Origin: Clostridia bacterium
GTDB taxonomy: Bacteria; Bacillota; Clostridia; Oscillospirales; CAG-382
Reading direction: 5' to 3'
Assembly (NCBI GenBank): GCA_017629175.1
Contig: JAGBXS010000067.1
Span: forward strand, 1 to 36,499
Length of the DNA stretch: 36,499 bases
The notes below the pieces were generated by a model, which saw only the letters and a program-made list of their open reading frames with translations, ran no database searches and was not told where the DNA came from. The first letter of the stretch is position 1. Each line of letters begins with the position of its first letter. The translations under genes were made by a program, and so were the position numbers. Positions 1,261-28,019 of this stretch are shown here, in pieces.

Positions 1261-2531
1261 AAAAGGTGTGTATCACCACCCTTGGGTGCCGTGTCAACCA
1301 ATATGAATCCGTCTCCATTGCGGAGACGTTGCAGGCCAACGGTTTCCTTGTTACCAAGGAAGAGGAAGGCTGTGACTATTACCTGCTGAACACCTGCTCC
1401 GTTACAGGGGAAAGTCAGCGGCAGAGCCGTCAGCTTGCCCGCCGCTATGGCTCCCGCGGGAAGGTGGCCGTCATCGGATGCGCCTCCCAAAACCAAAAGG
1501 AAGACTTTTTGTCCATCCCCGGGGTATTTTACGTGGGAGGATGCAGTCAAAAAGGGAAGGTGGCGGAAGCCATTGTTTCCGATGCTGGAGGAGACTTCGT
1601 CACCACCATGGAAGGCGTTCCCTACGAACCCATGGAGGTGAAAGGAAAGAGCGACTTGTTCTCTACCTGCCGTGCCTATATCAAGATCCAGGACGGATGT
1701 AGCGGCAAATGTACCTATTGCATCATTCCCACCCTCAGAGGTAAGACCCGTTCCAGAGAGAGCAGTGAGATTCTTGCAGAAGCTTCCCGCTTGGTAAAAG
1801 CGGGCTACAAGGAGATCGTTCTGACGGGTATAGAGACTTCTGCGTATAACAAACGCCCTCTCGGGGAATTGATCACCGCCTTGGGCGACCTGCAATCGGA
1901 GGGGCTTTTGCGTGTCCGCCTGGGCTCCTTGTCCATCGGCAGTCTGACCCCCGCCTTTTTGAATGCCATTGGGGAAGCACCCAATTTTATGCCCCATCTC
2001 CATCTGTCCCTGCAATCGGGCTCCACTCGGATCCTGCGCTTGATGCGCCGTCCCTACACGGCGGAAGGGGCGATGGAAAAGATCCTCATGTTAAAGGAAG
2101 CACTGCCTCACGTACAGCTCAGCGCAGACTTTATCACCGGATTCCCCACGGAGACCGAGGAGGACTATTTGGAGACCGAAGCCTTTGTCAGGAATGCAGG
2201 TATGATGCACGTCCACGCCTTCCCTTACTCCGAGCGGGAAGGAACGCCTGCCGCCACCATGGAAGGTGCCGTTCCCAAGGAGATCCGTAAGGAAAGATGT
2301 GCAAGGCTGAACGCCGTTTCGGCAGAGCAGAAAAAAGAGATCATGAACACCTTCACAGGGAAAACCGTCAAGGTTCTCACCGAGAAGATCAAAAACGGCG
2401 TGGCGGTTGGCCACACCGAGGAATTTATGGAATGCACCTTCCCGGCAGTCAATGCCGCGGTGGGGCGGGTAAGCGAGATCACCGTCTGTGGCAATCGCGA
2501 CGGTAAGCTTACGGGAAATGAAAGGAACTGA
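1257..2531 (+). CDS. mtaB: tRNA t6A37 methylthiotransferase MtaB
   Basis: A 424-aa radical SAM enzyme that adds a methylthio group to N6-threonylcarbamoyladenosine-37 in ANN-decoding tRNAs. The N-terminal UPF0004 domain carries the three cysteines of the auxiliary 4Fe-4S cluster (TLGCRVNQYES, NTCSV and the following GCAS). The radical SAM motif C-X3-C-X2-C is at C148, C152 and C155 (DGCSGKCTYCIIP). A short C-terminal TRAM-like RNA-binding region starts near residue 363 (FTGKTVKVLTE). Length and the TLGCRVNQYES signature favour MtaB over MiaB or RimO. The start overlaps the stop of the upstream Toprim gene as ATGA. Confidence 0.93.
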   Translation: MKKVCITTLGCRVNQYESVSIAETLQANGFLVTKEEEGCDYYLLNTCSVTGESQRQSRQLARRYGSRGKVAVIGCASQNQKEDFLSIPGVFYVGGCSQKGKVAEAIVSDAGGDFVTTMEGVPYEPMEVKGKSDLFSTCRAYIKIQDGCSGKCTYCIIPTLRGKTRSRESSEILAEASRLVKAGYKEIVLTGIETSAYNKRPLGELITALGDLQSEGLLRVRLGSLSIGSLTPAFLNAIGEAPNFMPHLHLSLQSGSTRILRLMRRPYTAEGAMEKILMLKEALPHVQLSADFITGFPTETEEDYLETEAFVRNAGMMHVHAFPYSEREGTPAATMEGAVPKEIRKERCARLNAVSAEQKKEIMNTFTGKTVKVLTEKIKNGVAVGHTEEFMECTFPAVNAAVGRVSEITVCGNRDGKLTGNERN

Positions 2532-23577: not shown

Positions 23578-23606
23578 TTGCATTGTAACGGAAACTGTGT
23601 TATACT
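23578..23606 (+). promoter_or_regulatory. Sigma-A promoter for the 458-aa gene
   Basis: TTGCAT (23578-23583) and TATACT (23601-23606) are 17 bases apart, with TGT before the -10. It starts only three bases after the ribosomal terminator's T-run. Confidence 0.8.
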
Positions 23607-23638
23607 GTGATCAACTGAAGAGAAGGAGGTGTTGCTTT

Positions 23639-25015
23639 TTGAACCGCTGGTTATATTGGTATGATTTCTTTGACAGAAACGATCCTGAGTCCTTTTTGGA
23701 ACAAATTAACGCAATGGGCACACTTCCCTTATCCTTAAGAGAATTGCTTCGCTCAGGGCAAGACAAAGCCTTTGGCGGAATGCTTCTCGACGTCCCGGAG
23801 GAGGACTTGAACGCACTTTGCCGGTGTACAGCCCGTGCAGGGCTCTCGCTGTGCTTGTTCTGCAGTGTTCCGTACAGTGAACGTACTCTGTACACGTTAC
23901 GGAAATTCAAAAACCTTTCCGTTTATCCGACCGCATCCTTATTGCAAAGTTTGTCGGAAAAGCAACCCGATGTGTCGTTGAACGCACAGGTGGTTTATCT
24001 GGATCTTCCGTTTCAAAAGCGCACCTTGGAGCTTTTTCGCGAATGCAAGACACGTGTAGTGGTCACAAAGGAAGAAAAGTTGCTTTCCGCCATATCGGAA
24101 AAAGGCTTTTACACCCTTCTTGCGGTGACATCGAATGCTGTGCGAAGGGAACCCTCTTCCTTTGAGATTCCTATTCAAAAGGATCCGCTGTTTAAAACCT
24201 TTCCCATTGCGCCCCGCGTTTCAATGCTGGACGACGACACTTTGCTTTTCTGTGCCGCGTATGAACGTTACTACGATCCTTCGGCTTGTATTTATAAAAT
24301 CGTAGGTGCTTTTCCTCATGTTTCGGAGACAAGGATATCTGTTCCGCAGGATCTTATGGCGTATTGCCGTGAAAAGCTTTCGGAAAACACCGCCGTGCTT
24401 TTGCAATACGGGAAAGGTGACGGGCTGTTCGTCTACGGCCTGCACGGCGATACAGGATGCTTGCTGGCCATGGATCACCGGTGGAAATCTCTTCTGCTGA
24501 GCAGAAAGGGGTTGGAGCATATCGCGGGCAATGGGGTCGAGATCACGTTACTTTCTCGGTTCTTCTCCGATGCTAAGCCCCGGGAGGATTTATTTACGGG
24601 CCTCTTGCGAGAATACGATGACACTAAGCTGCCTTATAGAGGCAGAACTGCCGCTGTGAGATTTATGAACGCATTCGCAACCGACGGATCTTCCGTTACC
24701 CAATCCTCCTTGCAGACCTTTGTGGAGGAGCGTTTTCTGATAGGGAATGCGTTGGCGTGGTTTGCGGCGGAAAAGGAGCTTTACGTAGAGAATTTGGAAA
24801 GTCACCTTACCTTCTTGGAGAAGGAGCTTCGTCCGATCCTGAGGCAAATGAGCGAGGGTATCTCCGAGATGACGCCCAAACGCCATTTGCAATGGAGTCA
24901 ACGCATCAATCGCGCCTTTGCATCGGAGGAGAACTGCGTGCAAGCTTGCGTGGAGGATCTCCGCCGTATGGCAACCTACCGCCAATGGGCAAAAGAGTTA
25001 CGAAAAAAGTCATAA
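23639..25015 (+). CDS. Unrecognised 458-aa cytoplasmic protein
   Basis: I do not recognise this family. TTG 23639 is chosen because AAGGAGG (23623-23629) is nine bases before it; an in-frame start at 23597 lies upstream of the promoter -10. The product starts MNRWLYWYDFFDRNDPESF and has no signal peptide or membrane helix. The first half looks like alternating strands and helices with several cysteines (LCRCTARAGLSLCLFC, about 61-76). The second half ends in a helical, charged region (about 370-458) that may form coiled coils. It has its own promoter and the next gene has another, so it appears to be monocistronic. Confidence 0.78.
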   Translation: MNRWLYWYDFFDRNDPESFLEQINAMGTLPLSLRELLRSGQDKAFGGMLLDVPEEDLNALCRCTARAGLSLCLFCSVPYSERTLYTLRKFKNLSVYPTASLLQSLSEKQPDVSLNAQVVYLDLPFQKRTLELFRECKTRVVVTKEEKLLSAISEKGFYTLLAVTSNAVRREPSSFEIPIQKDPLFKTFPIAPRVSMLDDDTLLFCAAYERYYDPSACIYKIVGAFPHVSETRISVPQDLMAYCREKLSENTAVLLQYGKGDGLFVYGLHGDTGCLLAMDHRWKSLLLSRKGLEHIAGNGVEITLLSRFFSDAKPREDLFTGLLREYDDTKLPYRGRTAAVRFMNAFATDGSSVTQSSLQTFVEERFLIGNALAWFAAEKELYVENLESHLTFLEKELRPILRQMSEGISEMTPKRHLQWSQRINRAFASEENCVQACVEDLRRMATYRQWAKELRKKS

Positions 25016-25033: not shown

Positions 25034-25062
25034 TTGCATTCCGATAGAAAGTGTGATATACT
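25034..25062 (+). promoter_or_regulatory. Sigma-A promoter for the lipoprotein gene
   Basis: TTGCAT (25034-25039) and TATACT (25057-25062) are 17 bases apart. The two hexamers and spacing are identical to those at 23578-23606. The start is expected near 25069, giving a short leader to ATG 25104. Confidence 0.82.
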
Positions 25063-25103
25063 AAAATAGATTATCAAGTAGCATTTTCAGGGGGAAATGA
25101 TAT

Positions 25104-26183
25104 ATGCTTCGAAAAGTTATCAGCCTTTTGCTTTTGATGGCATTTGTTGCTGCACTCTTTGCTTCCTGCGCGGTGGATTTTGCAGATCCCTTGGCAGACG
25201 CAGAGGATGAGCGTACCATCCCTACGGTGGTTTTACCCTCCGTAAAATTGAATCAATCCGTAACTTATCCCGCGCCGGAGCCCAATGAGGCGGTTTCTAC
25301 ACCTATGGACGAACCGCTTCCCGAGCCTGCGCCTATTATGATTCCCATCCGTTCTATCACCCAGAACCAGGAGAACGTGTTGGAGTTTTACGGCGACGTG
25401 GATATGAACGATCCTGAGGTAGCCGCCGCTGTTCAGCAGATTAATGAGCTGTTGGCAGGCTATGATAAGCCCATCGCCTTCTGCGCTTATTCGCTGGACG
25501 GCTCCCGTGCCATTGCCTACAACTGCCGCGAGAACTATTTCTCTGCTTGTACCATTAAGGCGGGATATATGCTGTATTGTTGTCTCGCCATCGACCAAGG
25601 CATCGTCGATCCCGATGAGATCATGATCTACGAGAAGAAGTACGAACACGGCGGCTCCGGCAAGATCAAGAATTCCGAGTACGGCACGCCCTACACCATC
25701 AAGGAGCTGATCCGTCTCAGCCTGCGTTACAGCGATAACATCGCCTATAAGATGCTGGTTCACTATTTCGGCAAGGACGGCTATAACAAAATGATGAACG
25801 AGCTTGGGGTGTCAAAGCTTCGCCTCAGCTCCTCCACCTCCATTTCTTCCGTTTGGAATTACAATGCCAACGCCCGTGACCTTTGCATCATCTGGCGTGA
25901 GTTGTATTTCTATTTCGCATCCGAAACGGAAATGGCTAAGTTGTTCAAGACTGCTACTACCAATACCGCATATAACTACGCCACCAAATTGATCGACGAG
26001 AAGTATTCTCACAAATCCGGCGACAAGTTTAAGCCCAACCCCGTCTATAACGATGCCGCCATCGTCTGGAAGAAGGATAACCCCTACGTAGTTGCCACAC
26101 TCAACGGGTCTGAAGGGGAAGAAGAGGACGAATACGTTGTAGGCACCATTGTCAAATTGATCAACGATCATATTATGAAATAA
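25104..26183 (+). CDS. Exported beta-lactamase-fold lipoprotein with Cys at the nucleophile position
   Basis: 359 aa. Residues 1-22 form a signal peptide (basic start, LLLLMAFVAALF core) ending in a lipobox-like FAS-C22, so it is probably a membrane-anchored lipoprotein. A proline- and acid-rich linker runs to about residue 95, followed by a class A beta-lactamase/D,D-peptidase-like domain. Motif 2 is intact as S210-D211-N212 and motif 3 is K304-S305-G306. Motif 1, normally S-x-x-K, reads C149-T-I-K152. Spacing between motifs (61 and 94 residues) fits class A enzymes. I saw no ExxLN omega-loop motif, so a lactamase function is doubtful; a peptidoglycan-related hydrolase or binding protein is more likely. 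The downstream NagB-like gene follows after 14 bases. Confidence 0.82.
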   Translation: MLRKVISLLLLMAFVAALFASCAVDFADPLADAEDERTIPTVVLPSVKLNQSVTYPAPEPNEAVSTPMDEPLPEPAPIMIPIRSITQNQENVLEFYGDVDMNDPEVAAAVQQINELLAGYDKPIAFCAYSLDGSRAIAYNCRENYFSACTIKAGYMLYCCLAIDQGIVDPDEIMIYEKKYEHGGSGKIKNSEYGTPYTIKELIRLSLRYSDNIAYKMLVHYFGKDGYNKMMNELGVSKLRLSSSTSISSVWNYNANARDLCIIWRELYFYFASETEMAKLFKTATTNTAYNYATKLIDEKYSHKSGDKFKPNPVYNDAAIVWKKDNPYVVATLNGSEGEEEDEYVVGTIVKLINDHIMK

Positions 26184-26197
26184 AGAGGACGTAACAA

Positions 26198-26968
26198 ATG
26201 GCACTTCTGAAAACCGTAACCAAAGATTCCCTTGTTTTCCACGTTTTTGATACCCGCGCCGAGGGTGGTGCCCTTGCGGCAAGAGAAGGTGCAGATGTGA
26301 TCCGTGACCTTCTGTCCAAGCAGGATAAGGTGAACATCATTTTCGCCGCTGCTCCCTCTCAGAACGATACTCTCTCTGCATTGCTGGCAGAGGAGGGGAT
26401 CGATTGGTCTCGTGTACGCGCCTTCCACATGGATGAGTACGTAGGCTTCGGCAGAGAGTGTCCCCAGAGCTTTGGTACTTATCTCTACGACCACGTTTTC
26501 GGCAAGCTTCCCTTCGGCGAGGTTTATTACATCAACGGCGCCGCGGAGGATCCCGAGGAAGAATGCCGCCGTTACAGCGAGCTTTTGACTACTTATCCCA
26601 CCGATATTGTTTTCCTGGGCATCGGCGAGAACGCCCACATCGCCTTCAACGATCCTTGGATCGCAGACTTCAACGATCCTGCATTGGTTAAGCTGGTTCC
26701 TCTGGATGAGGTGTGCCGCAATCAGCAGGTTCACGACGGATGTTTCCCCACCCTGGATGATGTACCCACCCACGCCTTTTCTTTGACTGTGCCCGCTCTG
26801 GTGAAGGCAAAGCACATGTTCTGCACCGTTCCCTGCGCTACCAAGGCTGAGGCAGTTTATCTGACCGCTACTGCTCCCATCAACGAGGATGTTCCCGCCA
26901 CTGCAATGCGGAACCATCCCCACGCCGTGATGTACTGCGATAAGGACAGCGGCGCCAAGCTTCTGTAA
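26198..26968 (+). CDS. NagB-like sugar-phosphate isomerase/deaminase
   Basis: 256 aa of the glucosamine-6-phosphate deaminase/6-phosphogluconolactonase fold. The FHMDEYVG block (D79) matches E. coli NagB D72, the proton-transfer residue, and the active-site loop GIGENAHIAFNDP is at 141-153. H147 matches NagB H143, but N145 replaces D141 and D152 replaces E148. It may therefore belong to a divergent branch acting on another sugar phosphate. CPQSFGTYLYDHVF resembles the NagB substrate loop. AGAGGACG lies upstream, and it probably shares a transcript with the upstream lipoprotein gene. Confidence 0.85.
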   Translation: MALLKTVTKDSLVFHVFDTRAEGGALAAREGADVIRDLLSKQDKVNIIFAAAPSQNDTLSALLAEEGIDWSRVRAFHMDEYVGFGRECPQSFGTYLYDHVFGKLPFGEVYYINGAAEDPEEECRRYSELLTTYPTDIVFLGIGENAHIAFNDPWIADFNDPALVKLVPLDEVCRNQQVHDGCFPTLDDVPTHAFSLTVPALVKAKHMFCTVPCATKAEAVYLTATAPINEDVPATAMRNHPHAVMYCDKDSGAKLL

Positions 26969-27125: not shown

Positions 27126-28019
27126 ATGGAGTTTCTTGTAGACAAAAAACACGATGGCGTCTTACTGCGTTCCTATTTAAAGGGAACCTGCGGCGTTTCC
27201 TCCCGCCTGCTGACACAATTAAAAAAACGCCCCGAGGGCATCACTGTCAACGGAACCCACGTTACCGTGCGTTATATCCTGCGGGAAGGAGACCTTTTAC
27301 GCATCGGCTCTGACGACATCGTTTCTCAGGATGCTTTTCCGGCAGTGGAGCTTCCCTTTACCATCCTATACGAAGACAACGATCTTCTCATTGTGGACAA
27401 GCCCGCCAATATGCCCACCCATCCCTCCGCAGGCCACAACGGAGATACGCTGGCCAACGGCTTGACGTTTTTGTTCGCACAGCGTGGAGAGCCCTTCGTG
27501 TTCCGCCCCGTTAGCCGATTGGATAGAAACACCAGCGGGATCATCACCCTTGCTAAGAACCAATACGCCGCAGGCGTGCTTTGTAAGGCGATGAAAGCCC
27601 ATCAGATCAAAAAAACATACCTTGCCATTACGGAGGGTTTCCCTCCGTCAGAAAGCGGCAGAGTGGAAACAGGAACCCGACGGAGAGAGGACTTCTTCGT
27701 TTTGCGGGAGGTTTGCGATATCGATGCTCCGGGAGCCTCCTTGACGGTTACGGATTATAAGCTTTTGCAGCAAAACGAAACCCATGCACTGCTGGAGTTA
27801 CATCCTCTTACCGGCAGAACCCATCAGATCCGCGTCCATTTGGCTCACTTGGGCTGTCCCATCCTCGGTGACGATCTTTACGGCAGGGAAAGTACCCTGA
27901 TCCCGCGGCACGCTCTCCACGCCTGCCGTGTGGAATTATGCCACCCCACCACCGGACAGCAAATGGTATTTGAGTCCCCCTTGCCGGAAGATATGAAGAA
28001 ACTGTGCGTTTTTCCGTGA
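27126..28019 (+). CDS. RluA-family pseudouridine synthase
   Basis: 297 aa. Isomerises uridine to pseudouridine in rRNA or tRNA. An S4-like N-terminal region (about 13-60, LLRSYLKGTCGVSSRLLTQL) precedes the catalytic domain. Motif II is S130-R-L-D133 in SRLDRNTSGI, with D133 the catalytic aspartate, and the TGRTHQIRVHLAHLGCPILGD-type block is near 235-255. The sub-type (RluA, RluC, RluD) and target nucleotide cannot be fixed. No Shine-Dalgarno sequence is visible before ATG 27126; the region is taken up by the hairpin repeat. Confidence 0.92.
   Translation: MEFLVDKKHDGVLLRSYLKGTCGVSSRLLTQLKKRPEGITVNGTHVTVRYILREGDLLRIGSDDIVSQDAFPAVELPFTILYEDNDLLIVDKPANMPTHPSAGHNGDTLANGLTFLFAQRGEPFVFRPVSRLDRNTSGIITLAKNQYAAGVLCKAMKAHQIKKTYLAITEGFPPSESGRVETGTRRREDFFVLREVCDIDAPGASLTVTDYKLLQQNETHALLELHPLTGRTHQIRVHLAHLGCPILGDDLYGRESTLIPRHALHACRVELCHPTTGQQMVFESPLPEDMKKLCVFP

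Follow-up and report, generated by a model that had tools for sequence, protein, structure and literature searches.

A natural, conserved cysteine at the SxxK serine position in a predicted surface lipoprotein of the Beta-lactamase2 family from gut Clostridia

Introduction

A structural classification from 2025 describes the penicillin-recognising (SxxK) superfamily as enzymes with a Ser-Lys dyad (PMC12073871). L,D-transpeptidases (YkuD domain, e.g. LdtMt2) are exported cysteine acyltransferases that run a neighbouring reaction on peptidoglycan stems, and the reason why they use cysteine while the superfamily uses serine is stated as not understood (PMC6391942). Within the superfamily, cysteine has been introduced at the nucleophile position by engineering in SHV-1 S70C, OXA-48 S70C, KPC-2 S70C and S. 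aureus PBP4 S95C, where it yields CxxK with the SxN and KTG motifs retained and where thioesters or Cys-Lys cross-links are known. Such engineered variants are usually less active than the wild type or inactive; the kcat/KM of OXA-48 S70C for a cephem probe is about a quarter of that of the wild type (0.098 versus 0.36 per µM per s) (PMC6391942). Thioester adducts with beta-lactams, and fragmentation of penicillins, are seen with the KPC-2 and OXA-48 Cys variants as well as with the L,D-transpeptidases (PMC6391942). Our search of the open-access literature found engineered Cys variants only, and no report of a natural CxxK sequence in the SxxK superfamily.

Here we describe CysBL, the product of a gene in a window of 36,499 nucleotides (the whole stretch of DNA analysed) from a Clostridia bacterium. 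A first-pass annotation of this window had pointed to a cysteine in place of the motif 1 serine. In contrast to the laboratory mutants, CysBL has a cysteine that occurs naturally and is both conserved and recurrent. A CxxK lineage of this kind, with CxxK and SxxK relatives available as matched pairs, would make the question of serine versus cysteine directly testable, and would predict an unusual interaction with beta-lactams.

Results and Discussion

Protein architecture

The coordinates of the gene, its motifs and its neighbours are summarized in Table 1. CysBL matches Pfam family PF13354 (Beta-lactamase2) well above the curated cut-off (98.3 bits versus 22), with residues 127–332 covering profile positions 3–212 of 214; the sole other Pfam match, to PF00905, is weak. 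The lipobox-like sequence at the N-terminus reads LFASC22, and the same position reads LLASC in the nearest orthologue and ALASC or LLVSC in others (alignment judged by eye). CysBL is thus predicted to be a lipoprotein with Cys22 as the lipid-anchored residue, and is probably exported. An AlphaFold2 model built from a three-sequence alignment has a mean pLDDT of 39 and is unusable for active-site geometry.

Table 1. Features of the CysBL locus (nucleotide positions in the window).
Feature	Position	Strand	Basis
Probable extended -10 promoter (TTGCAT, 17 nt, TGaTATACT)	25035..25063	+	alignment of orthologue upstream regions; inference
CysBL gene	25104..26183	+	ORF including stop codon; 359-aa protein, Pfam match, kept in 10 genus genomes
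Predicted signal peptide with lipobox-like sequence ending at C22	25104..25169	+	sequence and orthologue alignment, inferred
Variable linker between anchor and domain, Pro/Glu-rich (Ser-rich in orthologues)	25170..25391	+	orthologue alignment
Motif 1, C149-T-I-K152 (Cys for the SxxK serine, catalytic Lys retained)	25548..25559	+	sequence and alignments
Motif 2, S210-D211-N212	25731..25739	+	sequence and column counts
Shortened omega-loop region, L241-N252	25824..25859	+	alignment to PenP-type lactamases, segment listing, column counts
Motif 3, H303-K304-S305-G306 (K304 codon from 26013)	26010..26021	+	sequence and column counts
nagB-like gene, glucosamine-6-phosphate deaminase family	26198..26968	+	PF01182 match; NCBIfam NagB models below cut-off; synteny
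RluD-type pseudouridine synthase gene, third of the conserved cluster	27126..28019	+	PF00849 and synteny

Comparison with class A beta-lactamases and other acyltransferases

Motif 1 of CysBL lies in the context F146-S-A-C149-T-I-K152, and codon 149 is TGT (25548–25550), which confirms the original reading of the sequence. In phmmer alignments to the class A structures 3qhy and 4n92, C149 is aligned under Ser70 and K152 under Lys73, such that the class A serine of FAFAS-T-x-K-A occupies the column of C149. The first-pass annotation had also described motifs 2 and 3 as intact and correctly spaced. Both motifs are indeed intact, and the distance between motifs 1 and 2 is normal (61 residues, versus 60 by class A numbering), but the distance between motifs 2 and 3 is short, at 94 residues. 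This distance is about 104 residues in class A lactamases; CysBL is some 10 residues shorter because its omega-loop segment is reduced. Class A Glu166 and Asn170 (ExxLN) align with Ser242 and Ser246, and the omega-loop region of CysBL has no equivalents of these two residues. The segment is gapped or largely deleted in most of the other Cys-type proteins described below.

CysBL carries two of the motifs that define the SxxK superfamily, (S/Y)xN as S210-D-N212 and (K/H)(S/T)G as K304-S-G306, but departs from the strict form of motif 1, in which the Lys is present and the Ser is replaced by Cys. It lacks the class A hallmarks Ser70 and Glu166/Asn170, and scores only 44.9 bits against the NCBIfam class A equivalog NF033103 (cut-off 200). 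Since the omega-loop Glu166/Asn170 are absent, CysBL is unlikely to be a classical beta-lactamase. The initial assignment to a beta-lactamase fold therefore stands at the level of the family (PF13354) and does not extend to lactamases proper, whose deacylation residues are missing; the comparison with D,D-peptidases appears to fit better.

Class A lactamases (BlaP/PenP, KPC, SME) share with CysBL a sequence similarity detectable across the domain, the spacing of motifs 1 and 2, and SDN, but differ in possessing Ser70 and Glu166/Asn170 and in their longer distance between motifs 2 and 3. D,D-carboxypeptidases of the Peptidase_S11 family (DacA type) likewise belong to the SxxK superfamily, have no Glu166 and likely act on the same kind of substrate; they differ in their Ser nucleophile and Pfam family, and four of them are separately encoded in the genome that carries CysBL. 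L,D-transpeptidases resemble the activity proposed here for CysBL but have an unrelated fold, and a profile search found no YkuD domain in CysBL or anywhere in its whole genome. A further comparison is with Ser-type PF13354 proteins of Clostridia (L015, L016 and L240–L244), which share the fold family, SDN, K-S-G, surface attachment and the absence of Glu166, but have Ser in motif 1 and are uncharacterised.

Conservation of Cys149 within the genus

Among genomes of the genus to which the window belongs, 10 of 24 encode a CysBL orthologue, although several of the assemblies are incomplete and absence does not prove loss. Those of the genomes that are named in public records are Clostridia MAGs from ruminant and buffalo gut. 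All 10 orthologues, which share 47–91% identity with the window protein, have FSACT(I/V)K at motif 1, and the dN/dS ratio of the domain is 0.06–0.13 in eight close orthologue pairs. Codon 149 is TGT or TGC, encoding Cys throughout. The two nearest relatives with Ser (L015 and L016) use AGT or AGC; hence, while TGT does differ from TCT by one base, as had been remarked, the step at this codon was more likely between AGY and TGY, in either direction. Taken together, Cys149 looks like a real, selected change rather than an error.

One genome (G001) carries, in addition to a full copy of the Cys gene, a damaged duplicate (contig 41, positions 1330–2337, minus strand), in which approximately C141–K300 are missing. 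The deletion is joined at a repeated E-K-Y stretch, and the two copies lie on different contigs.

Distribution and phylogeny of Cys-type proteins

The count of homologues that the first-pass annotation had proposed was carried out on genomes of the family, order, class and phylum, together with the family of one further genome (G311). Among 182 non-redundant sequences with a residue in the nucleophile column, 166 have Ser, 15 have Cys and one has Gly; the survey was seeded with Cys-type profiles, and these counts do not represent prevalence. The Cys types comprise the 10 genus orthologues and five proteins from other genera: one that combines a dockerin with the Cys domain (L017, genome G030), two with SLH domains (L079 and L238), and two lipoproteins from two genomes of one genus (L254 and L255). 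A surface-attachment feature (lipoprotein signal, SLH or dockerin) is found in every Cys type whose architecture was examined. The C-terminal placement of the Cys-type Beta-lactamase2 domain in the two SLH surface proteins is an unusual architecture.

K152, S210, D211, N212, W251, E266, H303, K304, S305 and G306 are kept in all 15 Cys types. Motif 3 is more canonical in the Cys types than in the family, since S305 is invariant among them while, of 190 family members overall, only 51 have Ser or Thr in this column. The 15 proteins have a single cysteine in common, C149, which therefore has no shared disulfide partner. Four further cysteines of CysBL, C127 (9/10 orthologues) and C141, C159 and C160 (each 10/10), are conserved in the genus clade alone, and an explanation of C149 as a disulfide cysteine was rejected.

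The 10 genus proteins are monophyletic (support 99/98–99), with L015 and L016, Ser types of the same genus, as their sister group. The tree requires about four changes between Ser and Cys, at least three of which are forced by well-supported branches. The AU test rejected monophyly of the 12 Cys types that were identified first (p 0.002) but not that of the five Cys types from other genera (p-AU 0.35). The recurrence of Cys among related paralogues may in part reflect one old Cys with reversals to Ser.

The one homologue in which Gly occupies the nucleophile column (L163, 356–1144, plus strand; SAGCMK) comes from a different clostridial family. This Beta-lactamase2 protein keeps SDN and KTG, and is a candidate for a true pseudoenzyme.

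Proposed function and alternative explanations

We consider CysBL to be, on balance, probably a cell-surface enzyme of the D,D-peptidase/acyltransferase type that works through a Cys-Lys dyad with Cys149 as nucleophile. As such, it would be a membrane-anchored, extracytoplasmic member of the penicillin-recognising (SxxK) superfamily in which Cys149 takes the place of Ser. Lys152 would act as the base that activates the Cys149 thiol for attack on a D-Ala-type (or related carboxylate-ended) peptide bond, with K304-S305-G306 holding the substrate carboxylate and S210 passing a proton to the leaving group. The resulting thioester acyl-enzyme could be resolved by water, as in a carboxypeptidase or endopeptidase, or by an amine, in a transpeptidase-like transfer. 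The substrate would be a peptidoglycan-like D-amino-acid peptide. Catalysis, substrate and dyad chemistry are all predicted here from the sequence and its relatives. In an anaerobic host, the Cys149 thiol would presumably stay reduced. The replacement of a missing D,D-carboxypeptidase by CysBL was considered and rejected; because the genome encodes four Peptidase_S11 proteins and no YkuD protein, CysBL appears to be an addition to, rather than a stand-in for, the usual carboxypeptidases.

The first-pass annotation had offered either a thiol nucleophile with altered chemistry or a non-hydrolytic binding protein. The homologues favour the thiol nucleophile, because purifying selection has kept the Cys, which recurs in several lineages and is always accompanied by Lys at the third position after it, SDN and HKSG. 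A non-catalytic binder, in which acyl transfer is lost or slowed and the retained pocket binds peptidoglycan stems, glycopeptides or beta-lactams in a scaffolding or sensing role, is unlikely. In its favour, replacement of the nucleophile is a classic mark of pseudoenzymes, activity is usually lost in engineered Ser-to-Cys variants (PMC6391942), and the genome encodes four other D,D-carboxypeptidases. However, decay should have let Lys152, S210 or the nucleophile itself drift, whereas every other catalytic residue is kept in 15/15 Cys proteins; a decayed nucleophile would be expected as Ala, Gly and the like, as with the Gly of L163, and the same replacement appears to have arisen more than once. 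A redox-gated enzyme is less probable again, and is compatible with a thiol enzyme rather than exclusive of it. Oxygen would produce a C149-K152 cross-link (a sulfenamide or N-O-S bridge) that turns the protein off, and in the anaerobic gut it would be reduced and active or competent for binding. Precedents include the Cys70-Lys73 sulfenamide in crystals of SHV-1 S70C (Rodkey et al. 2012, as related in PMC5895744), the cross-link of S. aureus PBP4 S95C to Lys98, and the natural Lys38-Cys98 NOS bridge of the K15 transpeptidase (PMC8964421); the 15 Cys proteins share the Lys but no partner cysteine. On the other hand, the cross-link could be an artefact of aerobic handling, and the use of such a switch by these strict anaerobes is unsupported.

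Capture or fragmentation of beta-lactams by Cys149, such that CysBL protects the cell as a scavenger or thiol beta-lactamase, is quite improbable. The thioesters and penicillin fragments formed by KPC-2 and OXA-48 Cys variants and by L,D-transpeptidases (PMC6391942) speak for it; against it, the Glu166/Asn170 needed for class A deacylation are missing, the class A NCBIfam models fall far below their cut-offs (45 bits versus 200), and the gene is chromosomal and adjoins a ribosomal protein cluster. CysBL had no match among 72,556 plasmids and no relative was found in viral contigs, and a reading as a mobile resistance gene was rejected. An error of sequence or assembly that hides a Ser codon, or S147 as the true nucleophile, is scarcely credible. 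The codons are one base apart, and S147, a conserved residue within the genus clade, lies two residues upstream of C149. Nevertheless, because nine further, independently assembled genomes of the genus carry Cys with synonymous TGT/TGC variation, a sequencing error, and with it the TCT codon that resequencing might have revealed, is ruled out. The S147 column varies among A, S, T, C, P and G in the family, with A, T or P in the Cys types outside the genus, and its distance to the Lys is wrong: it sits five rather than three residues before this invariant residue, which follows the nucleophile column by exactly three residues in 182/182 sequences.

More broadly, and with somewhat less than even confidence, we propose that CysBL represents a thiol branch that evolved naturally within the superfamily, in which surface Cys-Lys acyltransferases of anaerobic gut Clostridia repeatedly exchanged Ser for Cys while keeping Lys, SDN and KSG. 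Thioester chemistry would favour amine transfer over hydrolysis and alter the reaction with beta-lactams, and would be workable since the thiol stays reduced without oxygen.

Genomic context

The gene order CysBL-nagB-rluD is found in 10/10 orthologue genomes, with the nagB-like gene directly adjoining CysBL in each (14 bp downstream in the window). On contigs that extend far enough, most genomes have rplQ immediately upstream, and pssA-rsgA-pknB-prpC-rlmN lie downstream of the cluster. The Ser-type relatives L015 and L016 are located outside this neighbourhood. The promoter-like block upstream of CysBL, which has a poor -35 element and was missed by a consensus scan, is conserved upstream of the orthologues and is probably the CysBL promoter. 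The arrangement weakly suggests that CysBL and the nagB-like gene form one operon, and hints at a possible link to amino-sugar or cell-wall recycling. Loss of CysBL by gene replacement next to nagB was rejected: genus genomes that lack CysBL have a more distant nagB (49–59% identity), which has unrelated surroundings in 6/6 genomes compared.

The NagB-like protein itself has an altered catalytic loop (GIGENAHIAFNDP) and falls below the cut-offs of all NCBIfam NagB models. Relative to E. coli NagB, we take the changes to be Asp141 to Asn and Glu148 to Asp. A 472-residue ORF between rplQ and CysBL (23597–25015) matches nothing in Pfam or NCBIfam. It diverges fast, with 38–78% identity versus 95–100% for the ribosomal neighbours, and does not appear next to CysBL in more distant relatives.
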